Source of the DNA: Gluconacetobacter aggeris
GTDB taxonomy: Bacteria > Pseudomonadota > Alphaproteobacteria > Acetobacterales > Acetobacteraceae
Assembly: GCF_014174395.1 (NCBI RefSeq)
Contig: NZ_JABEQD010000011.1
Coordinates: 62,001-126,000 of the forward strand
Reading direction: 5' to 3'
Length of the DNA stretch: 64,000 nt
The notes below the pieces were generated by a model that was given only the letters and a program-made list of their open reading frames with translations, was not told the origin of the DNA and made no database searches. Numbering within the stretch: the stretch's first letter is position 1; each line of letters begins with the position of its first letter. The translations under genes were made by a program, and so were the position numbers. Shown piece after piece: positions 3 through 9,316 of the stretch.

Positions 3-3000
3 GGCCAGCGCATGCGGTGGGCGCGTGGAATGTTGCAGATTCTGCGGCTGGATAATCCGCTGTTCGGACCCGGTCTGAAGGTTGCTCAGCGGCTATGTTA
101 TTTTTCTGCCATGGCGGGATTTCTGTTCGCTATTCCGCGTCTGATCTTTCTGGTCTCCCCACTCGCCTATTTGCTGTTCAACCAGACCCTGATCGCGGCA
201 TCACCCGAGGCGCTGCTGGCCTATGCCTTTCCGCATTTTTTTCATTCGATCGGGACGTCGGCGCGCGTGCAAAAGAACTGGCGCTATTCGTTCTGGAACG
301 AGATTTACGAAACGGTGCTTGCGCTCTTTCTTGTGCGAGTGACCATTATTACCTTGCTGTTTCCCAAGCACGGTAAGTTCAATGTGACCGAGAAGGGTGG
401 AACGCTCCAGAGTGCATATACGGATTGGCGGGCTCTTTACCCGAATATTCTCCTTTGCGCGGCCTTGGTAGCAGGTCTGGCATGGGGACTGCTGCGCTTG
501 GTCCTGATGCATAATGACATCATAACATTCAATGCATTGTGGATGAACGAACTGTGGATTTCAGTCAGCACGATAACCGTGCTTGCTGCTATCACCGTGG
601 GGCATGAGACGCGCCAGTTACGCCGCAACGCGCGCATTCATGCCGTACTCCCCGTGACGATAGGCCGTGATGACGGGCGGCTTGTCAGAGGGATGACGGT
701 TGATCTCTCGCGCGGAGGATGCCGAGTGTATCTGGATCCTGCGGATGTGAAGTCGTTTAGAACTGGTGCAGAAATAAAAGTGCACGTCGAATTACATGAG
801 GGGCCTATTCCTGCCCGGGTTGCGACAGTGCACGACGGAGTGATGAGCTTGGAATGGCAACCCGCTACGCTTCGTGATGAAGCACGGAGCATCCGCTTCG
901 CCTTCGGACGTGCCGATGCATGGGTTAACTGGTCCGACTATCCCCCCGACCGTCCGCTCCGCAGTCTGTGGCTTGCGGTCAGTTCCATTCGCAACCTGAG
1001 GGTTCGACGTGACAAGCCGGCGAGCGCCCAGCGCCATAGGGAGGCGATCGCGGCGCGGCTGCGCGCCAGCCAAGCCGTGGGCAGAAATGAGCGGCGCGCC
1101 GTAAGCCTGAGACCGCGTAAGACTAACATTACGATGATCGGCTTGCTCGCCCTGGGTTTAAGCATCAGCGGGGCTCAGGCTCAGACTTCTCCTCCGTCTT
1201 CGGACGTGCCTGCGACGGGAGGTGGGGACGACACGCTGCCCTTGCCGAATGCGGGAGAGCATGCCGCAAATCCTTCGGTTGGTGGGGCTCCGCTGATCAT
1301 GGGTATCCCCAGACCGACAGCCACAGCATCCACTGCCGTCGGAAATGTAGAACTTCCCGGCACGTCTACGCGGACATGGACCTTGCAGGAACTGGGCGCT
1401 CCCGCATCCCTGCGCATGACGCCTTTTGCCTCGATCCAGGGCCTCGATTTCGACCTGCCGCACAGCCAGCTTGTGACCGACGCTCATGTCACGTTCAGCG
1501 GTGCTTTGTCGCCTTCCTTGCTGCCGCAGAGCAGCAGTATTACGATCCGACTAAATGATCAGTATGTTGGAACGATTCCTGTCAATCGCGATCATCCGGA
1601 ATTCGGGCCGCTGACTTTTGCGGTTAATCCGGCCTTTTTCATGGGCAAGAATACGCTCAACTTTACCTTTGCAGGCCAGTATTCGGAAACGTGCGGTAAC
1701 GAAATCAGCCCTGCTCTATGGGGTGAGATTTCGGGGCAGTCTACCATCAGCATTACGACAGCTCCTTTGCCCGCGCGGCGCATCCTGTCCGCTCTGCCTG
1801 CGCCGTTTCTCGATACGGCGATGAACGAGCGCGCCGTTGTTCCTATCATCATGCCCGCAAAGCTCGATACGTCGTCGCAGCAGGACATTGCGGTGTTGAA
1901 AGCGGCATCCGTGGTTTCGTCCTGGTTCGGCAGGATCGTGGACTTCCATCATGTCACCTTTCCGGTTTCGGAGGAGGTTCCGCTGGGGGGAAATGCGGTG
2001 GCGATCGGTGTGCTCAACCGCCTGCCGCCCGTAATAGCCAAAGCCGTAAATGTTGTTGGCCCCACGGTGGCGGAAATTGCCAATCCGAGCGACCCGTTCG
2101 GTACAATCCTGGTGGTGAGCGGAAGGAATGAAGCAGAACTGCTGACCGCGGCGCGCGGGCTTGCCTTCATGTCCAACACATTTGGCGATATATCGAGCCT
2201 GACGGTTGCCCCTGTCACCTTGTCGCATCGGAAACCATACGACGCGCCAGCTTTCCTGCCGACTGATCGGTTGGTCCGGTTTGGCGAGCTGGTCAACTTT
2301 GGCAACCTGCAGGGCCATGGTTATGTTCCGGGCACGCTGGCGATACCTTTCCGGATCTCCCCGGATCTCTATACATGGCGCGGCAGATCCTTCGAGGCCG
2401 ATTTCCAGATTCGGACGCCGCTGGGCAGCATAATCGACATGGCCCAGTCCCGAGTGGATGTAAGCCTGAACGACGTTTATCTGCGCAGCTATTCCTGGGC
2501 TTTGCCGGATCGTCTGCCGAGCTGGATCAGCCGGTTTCTGCCACATGCTTCACAGATCCATAAGGATAAGGTGAACCTGCCACTGTGGAGCGTTTATGGC
2601 CAGAATCAGTTGAAGTTCTATTTTGACGGACGCCCGTTGGCGCGGCGGGACTGCAGTGCGATTCCGCAAGATCTGACCGTTGGAATCGATCCGGATTCAA
2701 CTCTGGATTTCCGGCGGGCCTATCATTTGGCGACGATGCCCAATCTGGCCTATTTCGCGAATAGTGGCTTTCCCTTTACCCGCATGGCCGATCTATCGCA
2801 GACAGCGATCGTATTGCCTTCCCGGCCTGGGACCGCATTCCTGACCGCCTATCTGGACTTGATGGGCATGTTCGGTTCCTTCACCTGGTATCCGACCGAA
2901 GGGATAACGATCGTGGGACCAAATGGCCTGGAGGCGGTGCAGGATGACGATCTGATCGTCATGGCTACGCTGCCAGGCAGCGATATGGTGTCATCCATTT

Positions 3001-3527
3001 TGGCGGGTACACCATATCGGCTCGAAAATGGCCAGCTACGCCTTGCGGAACATTCACTCCTGGACGGCATTCGCTATGCTTTTCCCGAAAGTAAATCGTC
3101 CCAGCCCGATACGGCGGCGCTGGAGGGGTCAGCATCATTGGGCGGAGGTGGCGCGCTGATCGGTGCCCAGTCGCCCTTTGCGGCCAATCGGTCTGTCGTA
3201 ATGATGCTAGGTGGTACGCCGCAAGGGTTGGAGGACCTGATTCATACGATACAGGATACCACCCTGCAAAAAGGGGTGCAGGGCGACCTTACCGTCGTCA
3301 ACGGGCAAAAGATCATCGCTTCACGCAGTGGCAAGACCTACACGATCGGTTCATTGCCCTGGTGGCTATGGTCCGACTGGTTCCTGCGCGAGCACCCTTT
3401 GCGCGTGATCTTTCTCTCTATCGCGGGTTCGCTGGTCGTCGGTCTGTCACTGCATAAGGGATTATCGTTGCGCGCGGCGCGGCGGCAGGCCTATCTGGAT
3501 GCAAGTGGCAGCGGGAAGAATGCATGA
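3..3527 (+). CDS. bcsAB: Cellulose synthase BcsAB fusion, 3' part (5' end outside window)
   Basis: The reading frame is open to the window edge. Its first codons read GQRMRWARGM, the QxxRW motif of processive family-2 glycosyltransferases, so the N-terminal half of BcsA lies upstream. BcsA membrane helices follow. A PilZ domain for c-di-GMP comes next, with RxxxR at about R204-R208 and DLSRGG near D231, counting from the Met codon at 12. A hydrophobic, signal-like stretch near residues 375-395 marks the join to BcsB, and a single helix near 1133-1152 would anchor BcsB's C-terminus. The protein polymerises UDP-glucose and passes the glucan through the inner membrane. Acetic acid bacteria commonly carry A and B as one polypeptide of about 1550 residues. 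bcsC overlaps its stop by ATGA. Codons are noticeably more A/T-rich than in genes beyond 9 kb. Confidence 0.96.
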   Translation, partial: GQRMRWARGMLQILRLDNPLFGPGLKVAQRLCYFSAMAGFLFAIPRLIFLVSPLAYLLFNQTLIAASPEALLAYAFPHFFHSIGTSARVQKNWRYSFWNEIYETVLALFLVRVTIITLLFPKHGKFNVTEKGGTLQSAYTDWRALYPNILLCAALVAGLAWGLLRLVLMHNDIITFNALWMNELWISVSTITVLAAITVGHETRQLRRNARIHAVLPVTIGRDDGRLVRGMTVDLSRGGCRVYLDPADVKSFRTGAEIKVHVELHEGPIPARVATVHDGVMSLEWQPATLRDEARSIRFAFGRADAWVNWSDYPPDRPLRSLWLAVSSIRNLRVRRDKPASAQRHREAIAARLRASQAVGRNERRAVSLRPRKTNITMIGLLALGLSISGAQAQTSPPSSDVPATGGGDDTLPLPNAGEHAANPSVGGAPLIMGIPRPTATASTAVGNVELPGTSTRTWTLQELGAPASLRMTPFASIQGLDFDLPHSQLVTDAHVTFSGALSPSLLPQSSSITIRLNDQYVGTIPVNRDHPEFGPLTFAVNPAFFMGKNTLNFTFAGQYSETCGNEISPALWGEISGQSTISITTAPLPARRILSALPAPFLDTAMNERAVVPIIMPAKLDTSSQQDIAVLKAASVVSSWFGRIVDFHHVTFPVSEEVPLGGNAVAIGVLNRLPPVIAKAVNVVGPTVAEIANPSDPFGTILVVSGRNEAELLTAARGLAFMSNTFGDISSLTVAPVTLSHRKPYDAPAFLPTDRLVRFGELVNFGNLQGHGYVPGTLAIPFRISPDLYTWRGRSFEADFQIRTPLGSIIDMAQSRVDVSLNDVYLRSYSWALPDRLPSWISRFLPHASQIHKDKVNLPLWSVYGQNQLKFYFDGRPLARRDCSAIPQDLTVGIDPDSTLDFRRAYHLATMPNLAYFANSGFPFTRMADLSQTAIVLPSRPGTAFLTAYLDLMGMFGSFTWYPTEGITIVGPNGLEAVQDDDLIVMATLPGSDMVSSILAGTPYRLENGQLRLAEHSLLDGIRYAFPESKSSQPDTAALEGSASLGGGGALIGAQSPFAANRSVVMMLGGTPQGLEDLIHTIQDTTLQKGVQGDLTVVNGQKIIASRSGKTYTIGSLPWWLWSDWFLREHPLRVIFLSIAGSLVVGLSLHKGLSLRAARRQAYLDASGSGKNA

Positions 3528-6500
3528 CGGTTAGCGGTCGTCTAACTGTTCGCCTGGGGCTGCTGCTGATAGGCGGCGGGACGGTTGTGTCCGTGCCGGT
3601 TCACGCCCAGGTTCAGAATGCGGGGCAAGGGGGCGGGCTCCCGCCGCCGCCGGCCGCAAGCTCGGCCGCGGCAGGTGCTTCGGCCGGGTCGTTGGTGTCG
3701 TTGCTGATCCAGCGGGCGCAATATTGGTATGATCAGGGGCGTTACGGCAACGCGCAGGATGCGCTGAGCCAGGTCAAGCAAATCGCCCCCAATGATCCTC
3801 GCGTTATGGCGTTGACCGGCCAGTGGGCTCTACGGCAGGGGGACATTGGCGGGGCGCAGCGCGTCGCGGCTTCCCTTCGGATATTGGCTCCGGACGCGCC
3901 CGAAACCATACGGCTCGATCAGGCGCTCCATTTGCAAGATACGTCGCAGGGTGAATTACCCGCGATCCGTGCCCTGGCACAGGCAGGACGAACGGCTGCG
4001 GCTGCGGCTGGCTACCGGCGCCTGTTTCCTAACGGGCCGCCTCCGCAATATGCCGTGGAATATTATCAGACCCTCGCTGGAGCCGTGGGGTATCGTGATC
4101 GGGGGCGCGAGGGGCTTCGTGCGCTGGTTGCGGCCAACCCGAACGATATGGCTGCCCAACTCGCCTATGCGCAGGCTTTGACATGGCTCCCCGCCACCCG
4201 TCAGGACGGGCTGGCGCGCTTAACGAAGCTGGCATCGATATCCAGTCTCTCCGCGGATGATCTCGCGGCCGTGCGGCGAGACTGGCGGGAGGCGTTGCAT
4301 TGGCTGCCCGAGGTGCCGGAAAGCACCCCTTATTTCGATGCTTGGCTGAAGGTGAATCCCAGCGATAATGAAATCAGCCGTCTGCGGCAGCGGGCATCGG
4401 CTGCCGAATCCGAACATGCGGTGCTGGAGCGCACTCAAGCCTATCAGGACCTGTCCGCCAGTGAAATCACGGACGCCGACAAGCATTTCAGCAATGCTCT
4501 AGCTCAGGCGCCGAACGATGCTGATGCTTTGGGCGGACTGGGATTGGTGCGTATGCGCCAGGGGCAGATGGCGCAAGCCCGGGATCTACTGGAAAAGGCA
4601 ATGCAAGCCGATCCCTCTTCGGCGGCAAGGTGGCAAAGCGCGCTGAATGCCACGAAGGTTTCCGGCTCATACGAGCAGGTGCGTCGACTGATGGAGCAGG
4701 GGCAGTATGATGCCGCAGGCCGGGCAGTCGACGCTGCCCTGCAAGTCGATCCATCACAAACCATGCTGGTGGCGCTGCGAGGCGAAATCGCACGGCGGCG
4801 CGGCCGGACGGCAGAGGCTGAAGCGTCATATCGTCAGGCGATACGCACCGAGCCTGACAACGTGGTGGCGCTGGAAGGTTTATACCAGATCCTGCGCGAA
4901 TCCGGCCGCACGCAGGAAGCTGATATGCTGATCGCCCGGATACGGCGTCTGTCACCGGCATTCGAACAGCAGATGGCGGGGAACGAGCTGATCGCACAGG
5001 CGGAACGGGCGACGACGCTTGACGACCGTATTTCCCTGTTGCGGCAGGGGCTGGAGGACCGGGGGAATGATCCCTGGCTGCGCCTCCGCTTGGCGCAGGC
5101 TCTTCTGCAGGCCGACCAGCGGACCGAAGCGCGAGAGGTGATGGCTCCGCTCTTGTCGCCAGGTAGAGCGGCGTCCGTGGCGGAATTGCAGGCTGGGATC
5201 TATTTTGCCAACCAGGCGAATGACTTTTCTGCCGTGCGACAATTGCTGCAGCGGCTGCCGCGCGGGAGCCGTACGCCCGATATTCGGCGCATCGCGGACA
5301 GGGTTGAGGAACTGCAACTGGTCCAGGACGCGCCACCGAATGCGGAAGAGGCCCGATTGTATTTCATGCAGATCGCGCGCCGCGGCAATGATCCTGATGG
5401 CGAGCGAGGCCGGATGATCGCCACTGCTCTGCTGGATCGCGACGATCCAAAAGGAGCGAGCGCTGTCTTGCAGACTTTCATGAACGCAGGTTCGCTGACA
5501 TTTCGCCAGCGGATTGCCTATGCTGGTTTGTTCATGCGCATGCAGGAACCGGAGCGCGCGCGCCATCTCCTTGAAAGGATAGAAGGTTCCAGCCTGACCT
5601 CGGATGACAGCGTTGCGCTGCGGAATATCCAGGCAGGGCTTGCGATCATGACGGCCGATCGCCTGAATGCCGAAGGGCGCCGTGCCGATGCGTATGACGC
5701 GTTGGCACCGGCCCTGACGACCGACCAGCCGGATCCGGCGGCGCGCCTGGCGTTGGCGCGCCTCTATCAGTCGGCGAACCAGACGCGTAAGGCGCTGTCG
5801 ATCGCCCGTGCGGTCATCACGCGATATCCTAACGATCTGGATGCCCGGCTGGCAGTGGTGCGGCTGGCATTGCAGAACGATGGCTTCGCATTGGCTGAAG
5901 AGCAGCTTCGCTTCATGACGGAGGAGGCGCCCGCCGATCCGCGTACCTGGCTGGCTTCAGCGACGCTTCATCGTGCGGGCGGTAACTGGACTGCCAGCCT
6001 CAGCGACCTTGCCAGAGCCCGTGATCTGAGAATGCAGCAAATCGGCAATCAGGAGCGGGCGGGGGGCGGACACGATGGCGGCGTGTTGATCGACGGCGAG
6101 AGTGCCCGGATCAATCCCTTCCGCAACACGGCACAGGCCACGACAGATGGCGGAGTCGGAACGCAGGATCCAATCCTGCGTAACATTGATAGCGATATCG
6201 CGAGCACAACGCAGGAATTCGCTCCCTTCGTTGATGCTGGACCGATCTTTCGGGGACGTTCCGGCACGGGCCTGAACCAGTTGACCGAGGGTGATCTGCC
6301 GATCACAGGCTCCTTTGCGCTTGGCACAGGGCGGATGTCGCTGAATGTGACGCCGACCGTTCTGGCATCGGGTGTTGGCAGCATGGATTACGTGGAGGGG
6401 CTGCGTGAAATCGGGACTGCGGCGCTAACGAAGGAATATGGCGCCGTGGCCAACCGCTTCCACGCTGTGGGCGTGGGAACAAATCTGGCCTATGCATGGA

Positions 6501-7297
6501 AATGGCTGAAGGTGGACGTTGGATCGTCTCCCCTGGGTTTCCGTGAGACGAATGTACTGGCCGGGGCGGAGGTCAGCCCGCAGATCACTAACCAGCTGCG
6601 TATTCGGGTCGCCGCCGACCGGCGGGCAGTGACCGATAGCGTGCTGGCCTATGCTGGCCTGCATGATGGTTTGAAGGGCAGCAATTGGGGAGGGGTGGTC
6701 CGCAATCGTTTGAACGGGCAATTGGAATACGGGGATCCGCTGCTCAATTTCTATGTTCGTGGAGGCTTCGCCTATATCCAGGGGCATAACGTCCAAGACA
6801 ATGAGGAATATGAATCTGGCGCTGGTGGCAGCGTTTCGGTTTTCAAGGATACGACAAACGAGGTTCGGCTGGGCGTGGACCTGACCTGGTTTAAATATAA
6901 CAACAACCAGTATCTGTTCAGTCTCGGCAATGGTGGATATTTCTCTCCACAGTCTTATTTCGCGCTGCTTGTGCCGGTGCGCTATTCGGGCCACTCCGGA
7001 AATTGGCTGTGGAATGTTAATGGTTCGATCGGTTATCAGTCCTATAGTTCGCGTTCCTCGTTGTTCTATCCGACCAGACCGGAGTTGCAGGAGCAGTTGG
7101 ATATTGCTGATCCGACTGCGGCCGTAGCAGGGGGCGTATCCGATTCCGGTTTGGTCGGCGGTGCGAGCGGTCACCTGTCTTATCAGGTGACGTCGGCGCT
7201 GCGCGTTTCCGGTGATTTTCAGTATCAGAAGGCGGGGCCGTGGAACGAGACGACCGCCGGCCTTTCGCTTCATTACTCTCTGCTTGGGACGCCATGA
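3524..7297 (+). CDS. bcsC: Cellulose synthase outer-membrane subunit BcsC
   Basis: This 1257-residue protein starts with a Sec signal peptide (hydrophobic core about residues 10-28, ending VHAQ). Many TPR-like repeats fill about residues 45-850, for example ALSQVKQIAPNDPRVMAL and ALAQAPNDADALGGLGL. The last ~330 residues look like an outer-membrane beta-barrel (BCSC_C). The family carries the cellulose chain across the periplasm and outer membrane, with the TPR part holding the peptidoglycan side. Its length is close to Komagataeibacter BcsC (about 1300). The start overlaps bcsAB by ATGA and the stop overlaps bcsD by ATGA, so the three genes are probably translated together. Confidence 0.95.
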   Translation: MTVSGRLTVRLGLLLIGGGTVVSVPVHAQVQNAGQGGGLPPPPAASSAAAGASAGSLVSLLIQRAQYWYDQGRYGNAQDALSQVKQIAPNDPRVMALTGQWALRQGDIGGAQRVAASLRILAPDAPETIRLDQALHLQDTSQGELPAIRALAQAGRTAAAAAGYRRLFPNGPPPQYAVEYYQTLAGAVGYRDRGREGLRALVAANPNDMAAQLAYAQALTWLPATRQDGLARLTKLASISSLSADDLAAVRRDWREALHWLPEVPESTPYFDAWLKVNPSDNEISRLRQRASAAESEHAVLERTQAYQDLSASEITDADKHFSNALAQAPNDADALGGLGLVRMRQGQMAQARDLLEKAMQADPSSAARWQSALNATKVSGSYEQVRRLMEQGQYDAAGRAVDAALQVDPSQTMLVALRGEIARRRGRTAEAEASYRQAIRTEPDNVVALEGLYQILRESGRTQEADMLIARIRRLSPAFEQQMAGNELIAQAERATTLDDRISLLRQGLEDRGNDPWLRLRLAQALLQADQRTEAREVMAPLLSPGRAASVAELQAGIYFANQANDFSAVRQLLQRLPRGSRTPDIRRIADRVEELQLVQDAPPNAEEARLYFMQIARRGNDPDGERGRMIATALLDRDDPKGASAVLQTFMNAGSLTFRQRIAYAGLFMRMQEPERARHLLERIEGSSLTSDDSVALRNIQAGLAIMTADRLNAEGRRADAYDALAPALTTDQPDPAARLALARLYQSANQTRKALSIARAVITRYPNDLDARLAVVRLALQNDGFALAEEQLRFMTEEAPADPRTWLASATLHRAGGNWTASLSDLARARDLRMQQIGNQERAGGGHDGGVLIDGESARINPFRNTAQATTDGGVGTQDPILRNIDSDIASTTQEFAPFVDAGPIFRGRSGTGLNQLTEGDLPITGSFALGTGRMSLNVTPTVLASGVGSMDYVEGLREIGTAALTKEYGAVANRFHAVGVGTNLAYAWKWLKVDVGSSPLGFRETNVLAGAEVSPQITNQLRIRVAADRRAVTDSVLAYAGLHDGLKGSNWGGVVRNRLNGQLEYGDPLLNFYVRGGFAYIQGHNVQDNEEYESGAGGSVSVFKDTTNEVRLGVDLTWFKYNNNQYLFSLGNGGYFSPQSYFALLVPVRYSGHSGNWLWNVNGSIGYQSYSSRSSLFYPTRPELQEQLDIADPTAAVAGGVSDSGLVGGASGHLSYQVTSALRVSGDFQYQKAGPWNETTAGLSLHYSLLGTP

Positions 7298-7725
7298 TGT
7301 TTTCTGACGTGTTATTTCTTCGGACATTTGCGGGTAGTTTCGACGAGCAGGTGGGGGAGGTGGCGCGTGACCGCTTCCTGCGTGTTGTCGGTACCCGGAT
7401 GGCCGAACGGCTGTTGCTTCCCCCCTGCGCGACGATCGAGGCATTGGAACTTGAGTTGAACGCCGCGTTAGCGCTGATACAGTGGGGCACGGCCTCGCTG
7501 CACATGGATCGGGACAGTCGGCGGCTGCTGATCCGTCATGCAGGGCTGCCCAAGGTTGGTGGATTGGGTGCGCCCGCCGGGACCTGGCTTCTGGCGTGCC
7601 TTGCCGGGCTATATGAAACGTGGATTGGGCGACAGCCCGATGCAACGCCTGGTTGCGTGATTTCGTGGGATGCCGGTCAGGATTGCAGCGACGGAACTAT
7701 TGTTCTCGAATATGGAATGGCGTAA
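7294..7725 (+). CDS. bcsD: Cellulose synthase subunit D
   Basis: The start is set at the ATG inside the ATGA overlap with the bcsC stop. An in-frame start exists further upstream but lies wholly inside bcsC. The 143-residue product keeps BcsD landmarks: IELN-like helix ALELELNAALALIQWG, then LPKVGGLGAPAGTWL and GLYETWIGRQP. BcsD is a periplasmic ring protein specific to acetic acid bacteria and some relatives. It helps gather glucan chains into crystalline ribbons. Its presence indicates a type-I-like cellulose operon. It is slightly shorter than the K. xylinus protein (156 residues). Confidence 0.92.
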   Translation: MMFSDVLFLRTFAGSFDEQVGEVARDRFLRVVGTRMAERLLLPPCATIEALELELNAALALIQWGTASLHMDRDSRRLLIRHAGLPKVGGLGAPAGTWLLACLAGLYETWIGRQPDATPGCVISWDAGQDCSDGTIVLEYGMA

Positions 7726-7824: not shown

Positions 7825-8472
7825 TTGGCGCCGCTTCTTCTTGGTTTGACCATTCTGCTGGTTGGCGATAGCCACGTGACGTTTAAAAACACGCTTCTGG
7901 CCACGCTTCCGGACGAACTGACGCGCCAGGGGGCCAAGGTCATCAGCTATGGCCTCTGTTCTTCGAAGCCGGAGGACTGGGTGGATGAAAAACCGACCAA
8001 CACGTGTGGATCCACCATGCGGGTTGGCGTCGAGCCCATTACCCTGTCGATGCAGCCCGGGGATGTGCCGCCCAATATTCCGGCCCTGCTGGAAAAATGG
8101 CATCCCAATGCGGTGATCGTCGTCTTTGGCGACGCGATGGCCGGGTATGGGCAGAAGGATATGCCGACCAATTGGATTGACGATCAGGTCCATGCATTGG
8201 TCGATCAGGTCGGTTCAACCAACTGCATATGGGTCGGGCCGACTTGGGGGGCGTATAACCCCCGTTACGGCAAGACCGACCAGCGGACGCTTCAATTGGC
8301 TGCTCTTTTGAAAAAAGACGTTCAGCCTTGTCATTACATTGATTCGACAACCCTGATGTCTCGCGGGCATGTTGAAACTGAAGACGGTATCCATCTGACA
8401 ACCACCGAATATCAGAAATGGAGCGCCGCCCTGTCAGCCCAGATCATACCGCTATTAGTTCATAAATCCTGA
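7825..8472 (+). CDS. SGNH/GDSL-fold protein ending the cellulose operon (BcsX/WssF-like?)
   Basis: The only good start is TTG at 7825: an in-frame stop sits at 7810-7812 and a strong GAAGGAAAG lies 5 nt upstream of the TTG. The 215-residue product has SGNH block I at once (LLVGDSH, Ser16) and a block-V DxxH (D187-H190, EDGIHLT). The expected GxND of block III reads FGDAM (102-105), so the oxyanion Asn appears to be missing. Four cysteines suggest an oxidising compartment, yet no clear signal peptide is seen. It follows bcsD by 99 nt and precedes the operon terminator. SGNH proteins such as BcsX/WssF accompany some cellulose-modification operons; acyl transfer or removal on the glucan is inference. 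No acyltransferase partner is visible in the window. Confidence 0.75.
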   Translation: MAPLLLGLTILLVGDSHVTFKNTLLATLPDELTRQGAKVISYGLCSSKPEDWVDEKPTNTCGSTMRVGVEPITLSMQPGDVPPNIPALLEKWHPNAVIVVFGDAMAGYGQKDMPTNWIDDQVHALVDQVGSTNCIWVGPTWGAYNPRYGKTDQRTLQLAALLKKDVQPCHYIDSTTLMSRGHVETEDGIHLTTTEYQKWSAALSAQIIPLLVHKS

Positions 8473-8526: not shown

Positions 8527-8777
8527 TTCGTTGCGATCTGTTGTTCGCACCGGACGGTAATCACTCGGAGTGTCTTCCCTAGGGCGGCCCATTACGTGCT
8601 TCACGCGGGCATAAGATAATATTGTATTCTTGATATCCGGGCCAGCCCCGTTGCCTAGGAACGATAACGCGGCGGTGGAGACTATTTCGCCCTCCCATGA
8701 CACCGGATGGCGACGATCAGTCTATCTGAGGCGTTATCCGAAGTCATATCAAGACTTTAGCGTTTGGCTGCTGAACG
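8527..8777. other. Gene-poor, AT-rich stretch between terminator and integrase scar
   Basis: I see no convincing gene in these ~250 bases. Short open frames exist on both strands but none resembles a known family or has a good ribosome site. Local composition is more A/T-rich than the backbone (for example ATAAGATAATATTGT near 8610). It looks like decayed mobile DNA, in keeping with the integrase fragment beside it. Confidence 0.5.
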
Positions 8778-8909
8778 TCATGACGATGAACTTGTCGGGT
8801 GGAGGTCCCCCCCGTTCGGATTGACCAGCAGAAACAGGCCAAGCGAGTCGCTTAATTTATATGGCTTATCCTTGGGCGCAGCCTTCCGGGCCGCGACGTC
8901 CGTCAGCAT
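8778..8909 (-). pseudogene. N-terminal fragment of a P4-type tyrosine integrase
   Basis: On the minus strand an ATG at 8909-8907 opens 43 codons. Residues 1-34 (MLTDVAARKAAPKDK, then PYKLSDSLGLFLLVNPNGG) match the N-terminal arm-binding DUF4102 domain typical of integrases that insert into tRNA genes. Similarity stops at the GG. The frame then runs into an 11-bp copy of the tRNA-Cys 3' end and stops at 8778. A full integrase has about 400 residues, so over 90% is missing. The fragment starts ~160 bp from the 3' end of tRNA-Cys and points away from it, the usual tRNA-attL-int layout. Confidence 0.8.
8798..8808. repeat. att-like copy of the tRNA-Cys 3' end (distal copy)
   Basis: GGTGGAGGTCC occurs here and again at 9064-9074, in the same orientation, where it forms the last bases of tRNA-Cys including the encoded CCA. 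The integrase homology ends exactly at this copy, so it could be the attR core of a collapsed element or the deletion junction. The exact match is only 11 bp, shorter than usual att cores. Confidence 0.55.
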
Positions 8910-8910
8910 G

Positions 8911-8977
8911 GATACCCCCACGCCTGGCTTGATACCCCCATATCTACCCCACCTCTACCTGCGCTTCATGGGGTATC
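8911..8977. repeat. Repeated GATACCCCCA motifs upstream of the integrase start
   Basis: GATACCCCCA is present at 8911-8920 and 8931-8940 (20-bp period). A shorter CTACCCCA follows at 8944-8951, and an inverted TGGGGTATC lies at 8969-8977. They sit between tRNA-Cys and the integrase start, where arm-type integrase sites or the integrase promoter would be expected. Function is inference. Confidence 0.5.
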
Positions 8978-9063
8978 GCGGCGAAAACATCGGAACACCC
9001 CGCGTCCCACAGGGGCCGGTTTTCCTCAGTTTCGTCAATACATGCGATCATTGGTGAATATCT

Positions 9064-9074
9064 GGTGGAGGTCC
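9064..9074. repeat. att-like core at the 3' end of tRNA-Cys (proximal copy)
   Basis: This is the partner of the 11-bp copy at 8798-8808. It covers the encoded CCA, the discriminator base and part of the acceptor stem of tRNA-Cys, the usual crossover position for P4-type integrases. Confidence 0.55.
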
Positions 9075-9139
9075 GGGCGGGAATCGAACCCACATTCGCG
9101 GATTTGCAGTCCGCTGCATCACCATTCTGCCACCGGACC
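9066..9139 (-). tRNA. tRNA-Cys (anticodon GCA)
   Basis: Read on the minus strand, acceptor GGTCCGG pairs with CCGGACC, followed by T and an encoded CCA (74 nt in all). The anticodon loop ACTGCAAA has GCA in the middle, and the T-arm carries GGTTCGAATCC. It is the attachment target for the integrase scar downstream of its 3' end. Confidence 0.95.
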
Positions 9140-9156
9140 CGACATGGTGCGTTGGC

Positions 9157-9185
9157 TATATCCACGCTCTTGCGGTGTTGGTCAA
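9157..9185 (-). promoter_or_regulatory. Candidate sigma-70-type promoter of tRNA-Cys
   Basis: On the minus strand TTGACC (9185-9180) and GATATA (9162-9157) are separated by 17 nt. Transcription would begin some 10 nt before the mature tRNA 5' end. Confidence 0.6.
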
Positions 9186-9316
9186 GCCGTTGTGTGCAGG
9201 GAGCCTGCTAGGCAGATGGTGCGCGGGGACATAAAACGGGCTCAGGCTAGGGAAATGCCCCAGGGAACCACCGAAGATGGGGCCCGTGCCGGGGGTTACG
9301 TTGCGAAGGGAACGCC

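Follow-up and report, generated by a model that had tools for sequence, protein, structure and literature searches.

A 266-bp stub of a tRNA-Cys-integrated element beside the cellulose operon of Gluconacetobacter aggeris

The tRNA-Cys locus and its insertion

The window (the whole 64-kb stretch of G. aggeris DNA that was analyzed) begins with a cellulose operon, in which Pfam confirmed BcsB with PilZ, BcsC and cellulose synthase subunit D at 12-7722. Beyond it lies an intact tRNA-Cys gene (GCA; 9066-9139, minus strand; ARAGORN), whose 3’ end was the integration target of the insertion described here. The 11-mer GGTGGAGGTCC covers this 3’ end (9064-9074, the attL-side core copy) and recurs at 8798-8808 (the attR-side copy). 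These are its only two occurrences in the window, compared with a mean chance expectation of 0.03, and two copies appeared in 1 of 100 dinucleotide shuffles. The direct repeat, which has a spacing of 266, lengthens to 14 nt with one mismatch. An earlier reading of the window, made from the sequence only, had pointed to an 11-bp direct copy of the tRNA 3’ end at these two positions, and the exact repeat is confirmed. Within 30 kb downstream of tRNA-Cys in G000, the genome of the window, there is no further exact core copy.

An N-terminal fragment of a tyrosine integrase, 34 codons long and representing the arm-binding domain, occupies the minus strand at 8808-8909 and is cut off at the core. 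Translation from the ATG at 8909 to 8808 gives the 34 residues MLTDVAARKAAPKDKPYKLSDSLGLFLLVNPNGG. This peptide matches positions 1-30 of the 83 positions of Pfam PF13356 (Arm-DNA-bind_3) with an E value of 0.0007 and 20.1 bits, which is below the gathering score of 27, and it matches PHROG 3423 with an E value of 5.2e-9. It is identical to the integrase of phage phiKM1 at 25 of 33 residues, and identity to each of the 6 relatives compared is 20-25 of 33. The BLOSUM score to the phiKM1 integrase is 131, versus a best score of 62 in 20,000 shuffles; the other five frames of the insert score 15-27. The PF13356, PHROG 3423 and phiKM1 matches bear out the sequence-only reading, which had recognized the start of a DUF4102/P4-type integrase, 34 codons long, on the minus strand. 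The core-binding and catalytic domains are missing, and the frame ends 9 codons past the last integrase-like codon, in the core and flank. Homology to related integrases surely reaches the PNG codon (8811-8813). The next two positions, 8809-8810, are two G within a run of seven G, after which the core begins at 8808; since they sit in the G run, the end of the integrase homology coincides with the core only to within 2 bp. The earlier statement that homology stops exactly at the core thus holds for its position near the core, while its exactness is good to within 2 bp.

The 255 bp between the cores (8809-9063) are absent from the close relative G007 and, together with one core copy, make up a 266-bp insertion. 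In G007 the tRNA-Cys joins the flank that begins at window position 8797 directly through a single exact core, which represents an empty site; the flank after the core, CCCGACAAGTTC, is immediately behind the tRNA. The core that lies over the tRNA 3’ end in the window is the single copy at this place in G007, and the flank that follows the attR-side copy in the window directly adjoins the tRNA there. The tRNA side of G007 (window 9061-9300, 98% identical) adjoins the far flank (8602-8808, 93% identical) with a 14-bp overlap. Identity of the flank is 93% over 257 bp, with blocks on either side of the site at 97.2% and 97.6%; in a wider comparison, the long blocks common to G000 and G007 are 94.8-97.6% identical. 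Five other close relatives (G001, G003, G005, G006 and G010) carry CCCG directly behind the tRNA CCA, as does G007. Six more distant genomes with a readable tRNA-Cys (G002, G004, G008, G009, G011 and G012) have other tails, and G013 gave no match in the search of 59 relatives, which together with G000 made up the first search.

The insert was found in none of the 13 other genomes of the genus; 7 of the 13 matched it at an E value of 0.1, with scraps of 18-39 bp only. When 299 family genomes (own included) were searched with few candidates scored per genome, 8 matched at E ≤0.001; the matches in the 7 (of 298) other genomes were partial, the whole insert being absent from them, and mostly covered integrase gene starts together with the DNA preceding them. 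No viral contig shared even one exact 22-mer with the insert, and a plasmid search gave no match to the insert, with an 841-bp query matching the tRNA region only. In the phage collection, the sole match was the integrase region of Komagataeibacter phage phiKM1. None of these genus, family, viral and plasmid searches yielded a complete parent of the element, which counts against the remnant reading. The sequence-only reading had named element-free relatives carrying the same 8798-9064 DNA as a test of its proposal, and there are none among the 13 genus genomes; the comparison of the tRNA-Cys 3’ flank among relatives, which it had also suggested, yielded the empty site in G007. The 255 bp between the cores are an insertion at tRNA-Cys, and the empty site in G007 together with the two cores shows that integration took place there. 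An insertion flanked by two cores, one of which completes the tRNA-Cys, is the arrangement that marks a tRNA-integrated element.

Attachment layout and related elements

Upstream of the integrase start, three putative arm-type boxes lie on the minus strand in the same register as in related elements: a degenerate box 1, TGGGGTAGAT (8942-8951), box 2, TGGGGGTATC (8931-8940), and box 3, TGGGGGTATC (8911-8920), the last just ahead of the integrase start. Counting from the tRNA 3’ end, with the first base behind the tRNA as 0, these GGGGTA boxes of the window start at +115, +127 and +147, and the integrase starts at +156. A TTGAC box near the core (9034-9038, minus strand) is at +27. Offsets of the GGGGTA boxes and the integrase start are identical in phiKM1, G223, G004, G012 and G153; they exceed these values by one in G177 and G259 and by two in G251. 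This ruler is therefore kept in all 9 rows compared (boxes at +115-117, +127-129 and +147-149; start at +156 to +158), the rows being the window, phiKM1 and 7 genome loci that were picked because the boxes are present. They are partly dependent: over the 260 bp compared, G223 and phiKM1 do not differ; at another locus, 14 kb of G012 and G004 are 100% identical (rounded); and G177 resembles G259. TTGAC occurs at +27 or +28 in 8 of the 9 rows, the window among them, G153 being the row that lacks it. In more distant integrases of this type, start distances are 142-170 (6 loci) and the boxes are fewer or different, so the ruler is limited to this subgroup.

The box pattern has one match each in 8 of the 299 family genomes, all 8 at an integrase start of this kind, while a reversed control of the pattern gave 5 matches in the same search. 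From the ruler and the box pattern, the left end of the insert reads as a standard attL of the phiKM1 integrase type. The position and repetition of the GGGGTA boxes suggest that they are arm-type binding sites.

tRNA-Cys is occupied by related elements in two species of another genus, and is an integration site in use in this family. In G. entanii LTH 4560 (G177, NZ_NKUF01000018), a full 400-aa integrase with PF13356, PF22022 and PF00589 is located at tRNA-Cys, while in N. hansenii JCM 7643 (G259, NZ_BANE01000085) the integrase at tRNA-Cys is broken by a stop and frame changes. Both elements share the tRNA, the layout and the integrase family with the stub, but their integrases start at +157 and are identical to the stub peptide at 21 and 20 of 33 residues, respectively. 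The phage phiKM1 (LC644974), described in PMC8566455 as predicted active by PHAST, resembles the stub in 25 of 33 residues, in box register, in start distance and in targeting a tRNA 3’ end; unlike the stub, it is at tRNA-Ser and has a complete 52-kb record with a full integrase and right-arm boxes. The target also differs in phiAP1 of Acetobacter pasteurianus, which is likened here by its description in PMC8566455: it is a temperate phage with a tyrosine integrase and an att at a tRNA 3’ end, as for the stub, but with tRNA-Ser as target and an att site of 14-24 bp. The same source reports that a vector carrying the phiAP1 integrase and attP integrated (PMC8566455).

Searching 100 family genomes with the peptide gave matches in 23 (own included) at an E value of 0.001. 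tRNA-Cys was present at none of the 19 peptide-search loci scanned, and 7 of the 19 had at least one tRNA. A pattern scan of genome contigs returned 7 stretches, 2 of which were counted as real; in the remaining 5, ARAGORN found no tRNA and no integrase was seen in the printed frames. Another five PF13356 integrases are encoded in G000 itself, in frames of 414-460 codons. ARAGORN found no tRNA at their loci, and they lack the exact box pattern ahead, since the stub is the only match to the pattern in G000.

Other truncated genes were observed among these loci. In N. hansenii (G259), a muramidase-like frame (read by eye) is located behind tRNA-Cys beside the broken integrase, and a second GGACCTCCA lies ~2.2 kb behind tRNA-Cys, possibly reflecting another reduced prophage. 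At tRNA-Ser in G004 and G012, another integrase of this type is truncated, being cut after approximately codon 39. We considered this truncation as a repeat of the window junction and rejected it, as the cut reads as a transposase fragment (frames by eye).

Probable loss of most of the element and alternative explanations

In phiKM1, with the far core located from the tRNA-Ser end, two boxes lie 97 and 84 bp before the end of that core. The stub has no right-arm boxes, and its integrase fragment abuts the far core; therefore, the element has lost codon 35 and all that followed up to the right core, and with it integrase activity and the right arm. The sequence-only interpretation is largely right: the locus reads as a grounded prophage or island stub in which the left attachment arm survives. 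Very probably, a phiKM1-type element inserted at tRNA-Cys and later lost all DNA that lay between integrase codon 34 and the far core. The 255 bp are too short for any structural phage gene, and the relatives include a phage; ‘prophage remnant’ is an equally apt name, as the nearest complete relative found is the phage phiKM1.

The events probably proceeded as follows. A temperate phage or phage-like integrative element recombined its 11-bp core with the tRNA-Cys 3’ end, and the N-domain of its integrase would have bound the GGGGTA boxes in front of the integrase gene, as the conserved spacing suggests. A later loss, most likely a single deletion, would have removed all DNA between integrase codon 34 and the far core, with any cargo and any right-arm boxes. 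What remains is a 266-bp stub with neither integrase nor right arm, presumably unable to excise by itself. We infer that the deletion took place after integration. The sequence-only reading had proposed an element that lost nearly everything by internal deletion; the empty site and the ruler support the element remnant, whereas the deletion is deduced from what is missing.

The deletion ends ≤2 bp from the core and inside a G run, which points to an aberrant integrase reaction or a short-homology deletion. Had the integrase recombined the right core with a core-like site in its gene, the junction would fall at this position, and a short-homology deletion could have occurred in the run of seven G. 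A random deletion ending ≤2 bp from the core is improbable, so that a special mechanism is needed. Two candidate seats of the deletion were dismissed. A pseudo-core in related integrase genes is absent from 8 rows and from two full genes. The right arm of phiKM1 and the entanii integrase gene (near codons 30-33) share an identical 11-bp stretch, which was considered as a deletion hot spot and set aside, since these are different elements, the integrase gene of phiKM1 lacks it, and no right-arm remnant lies behind the G run of the window.

The end of the fragment ≤2 bp from the far core is also what would be left as int(N) by a split (‘suicidal’) integrase, i.e., one with the core inside its gene, cut by integration after codon 34, the rest having been lost next to the tRNA. 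Split integrases have been described, in PMC8371274 as found exclusively in archaea. The distance from the tRNA to the integrase start is that of standard unsplit relatives, the left junction resembles an ordinary attL, and no int(C) is present at the tRNA, all of which argue against such a split. Furthermore, 8 related genes match the tRNA-Cys core in only 5 or 6 of 11 bases near this position (8 of 16 loci gave rows in this comparison, the other 8 missing the motif used, and only the entanii and hansenii loci are tRNA-Cys elements), and two full genes have no 11-mer closer than 7 of 11 to their own core, with a shuffled mean of ~8. We consider both this explanation and its premise, a bacterial integrase that carries its attachment core at codon 35 and is split by integration, to be extremely unlikely; if true, behavior called exclusive to archaea (PMC8371274) would occur in a bacterium. 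Similarly improbable to the extreme is that the 266 bp are a miniature non-autonomous cassette moved in trans by related integrases. The two perfect cores, the intact-looking left arm and the full-length related integrases in the family would suit a cassette, but the unit was seen once, in one genome, by the genus, family and box-pattern searches, it has no right-arm boxes such as those of phiKM1, and the five other long-frame PF13356 integrases of G000 have no exact box pattern ahead of them.

A host origin of part of the insert was suggested by its first 36 bp. The trailer-like part (9030-9062, minus strand) resembles the tRNA-Cys trailers of G009 and G002: bases 4-36 behind the tRNA align colinearly with the G009 trailer (28 of 34 columns identical), with a score of 32 that was reached by none of 7,400 single-base shuffles, and the G002 alignment is weaker (score 22, p = 0.0007). 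G008 and the other tails and element ends had p values of 0.05 or above (37 compared, G009 and G002 included). The G002 trailer continues into a strong hairpin (z = -4.3) while the window stretch has none (z = 0.7), and among 299 genomes, 124 matched the left-end 79 bp at an E value of 1, all but the own genome with E of 0.004 or worse, which we took as chance. The trailer likeness counts against a simple phage end, which would not predict a trailer. Either the element once acquired a host trailer, or the species of G009 and G002 retain an old scar left by an element of this type. The likeness also favors an origin of the 266 bp as ancestral host DNA lost in six relatives by recombination between short repeats. 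The remainder of the insert is nevertheless phage-type integrase DNA in standard attL layout and, as G000 falls inside the close group (based on sequence identity rather than a tree), parallel losses would be needed in G001, G003, G005, G006, G007 and G010, making this origin very unlikely. A short core and a Pfam score under the cut-off might be expected if a chance 11-bp repeat coincided with a chance open frame; this is refuted by the empty site and the ruler, with the PHROG match and the shuffle control also against it, leaving it next to no probability.

Comparison with known remnants and the variable slot

The well-preserved stub belongs with the grounded prophages and islands already known at tRNA genes, and its biology is as expected. 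Loss of a recombinase or attachment site is described as fixing prophage remains in place (PMC6379469), and prophage remnants at tRNA sites, 5.2-19.5 kb in size, are described in O. oeni (PMC8074189). In these accounts, grounded or cryptic prophage remnants are kilobases long, compared to 266 bp for the stub. No comparable stub in Gluconacetobacter or the acetic acid bacteria was found in the literature searched, a scope outside which most subscription journals fall. By combining the empty site and the conserved attachment ruler, a stub of 266 bp can be recognized with confidence. Gene callers would probably miss such stubs, and the ruler could locate other short stubs, as well as true element ends, in acetic acid bacteria.

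The sequence-only reading had set the element beside the cellulose operon. Its location there is correct, and no further link was found. Among the 12 relatives whose flanks were compared over ~15 kb behind the tRNA, only G007 has the operon at this place. The idea that the element delivered the operon was rejected, as G007 carries the operon although the insert is missing there, and as G000 has no additional exact core copy in the 30 kb downstream of the tRNA. The stub either came later than the operon or arose independently of its arrival.

The slot from tRNA-Cys to approximately +14.5 kb varies among close relatives. It contains the cellulose operon in G000 and G007 and polysaccharide-type genes (read by eye) in some others, and is ~12 to 25 kb long in the five genomes in which both borders were seen (G000, G007, G003, G001 and G010). 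In G010, a 412-aa integrase-like frame is located ~+23.8 to +25.0 kb behind tRNA-Cys, adjacent to the distal end of the slot, and neighboring frames resemble relaxases and resolvases (translations read by eye). Between bcsD and the stub, window positions 7825-8472 hold a 215-aa frame that has no Pfam match at an E value of 0.01, appears by eye to encode an SGNH-type hydrolase, and is conserved in G007.
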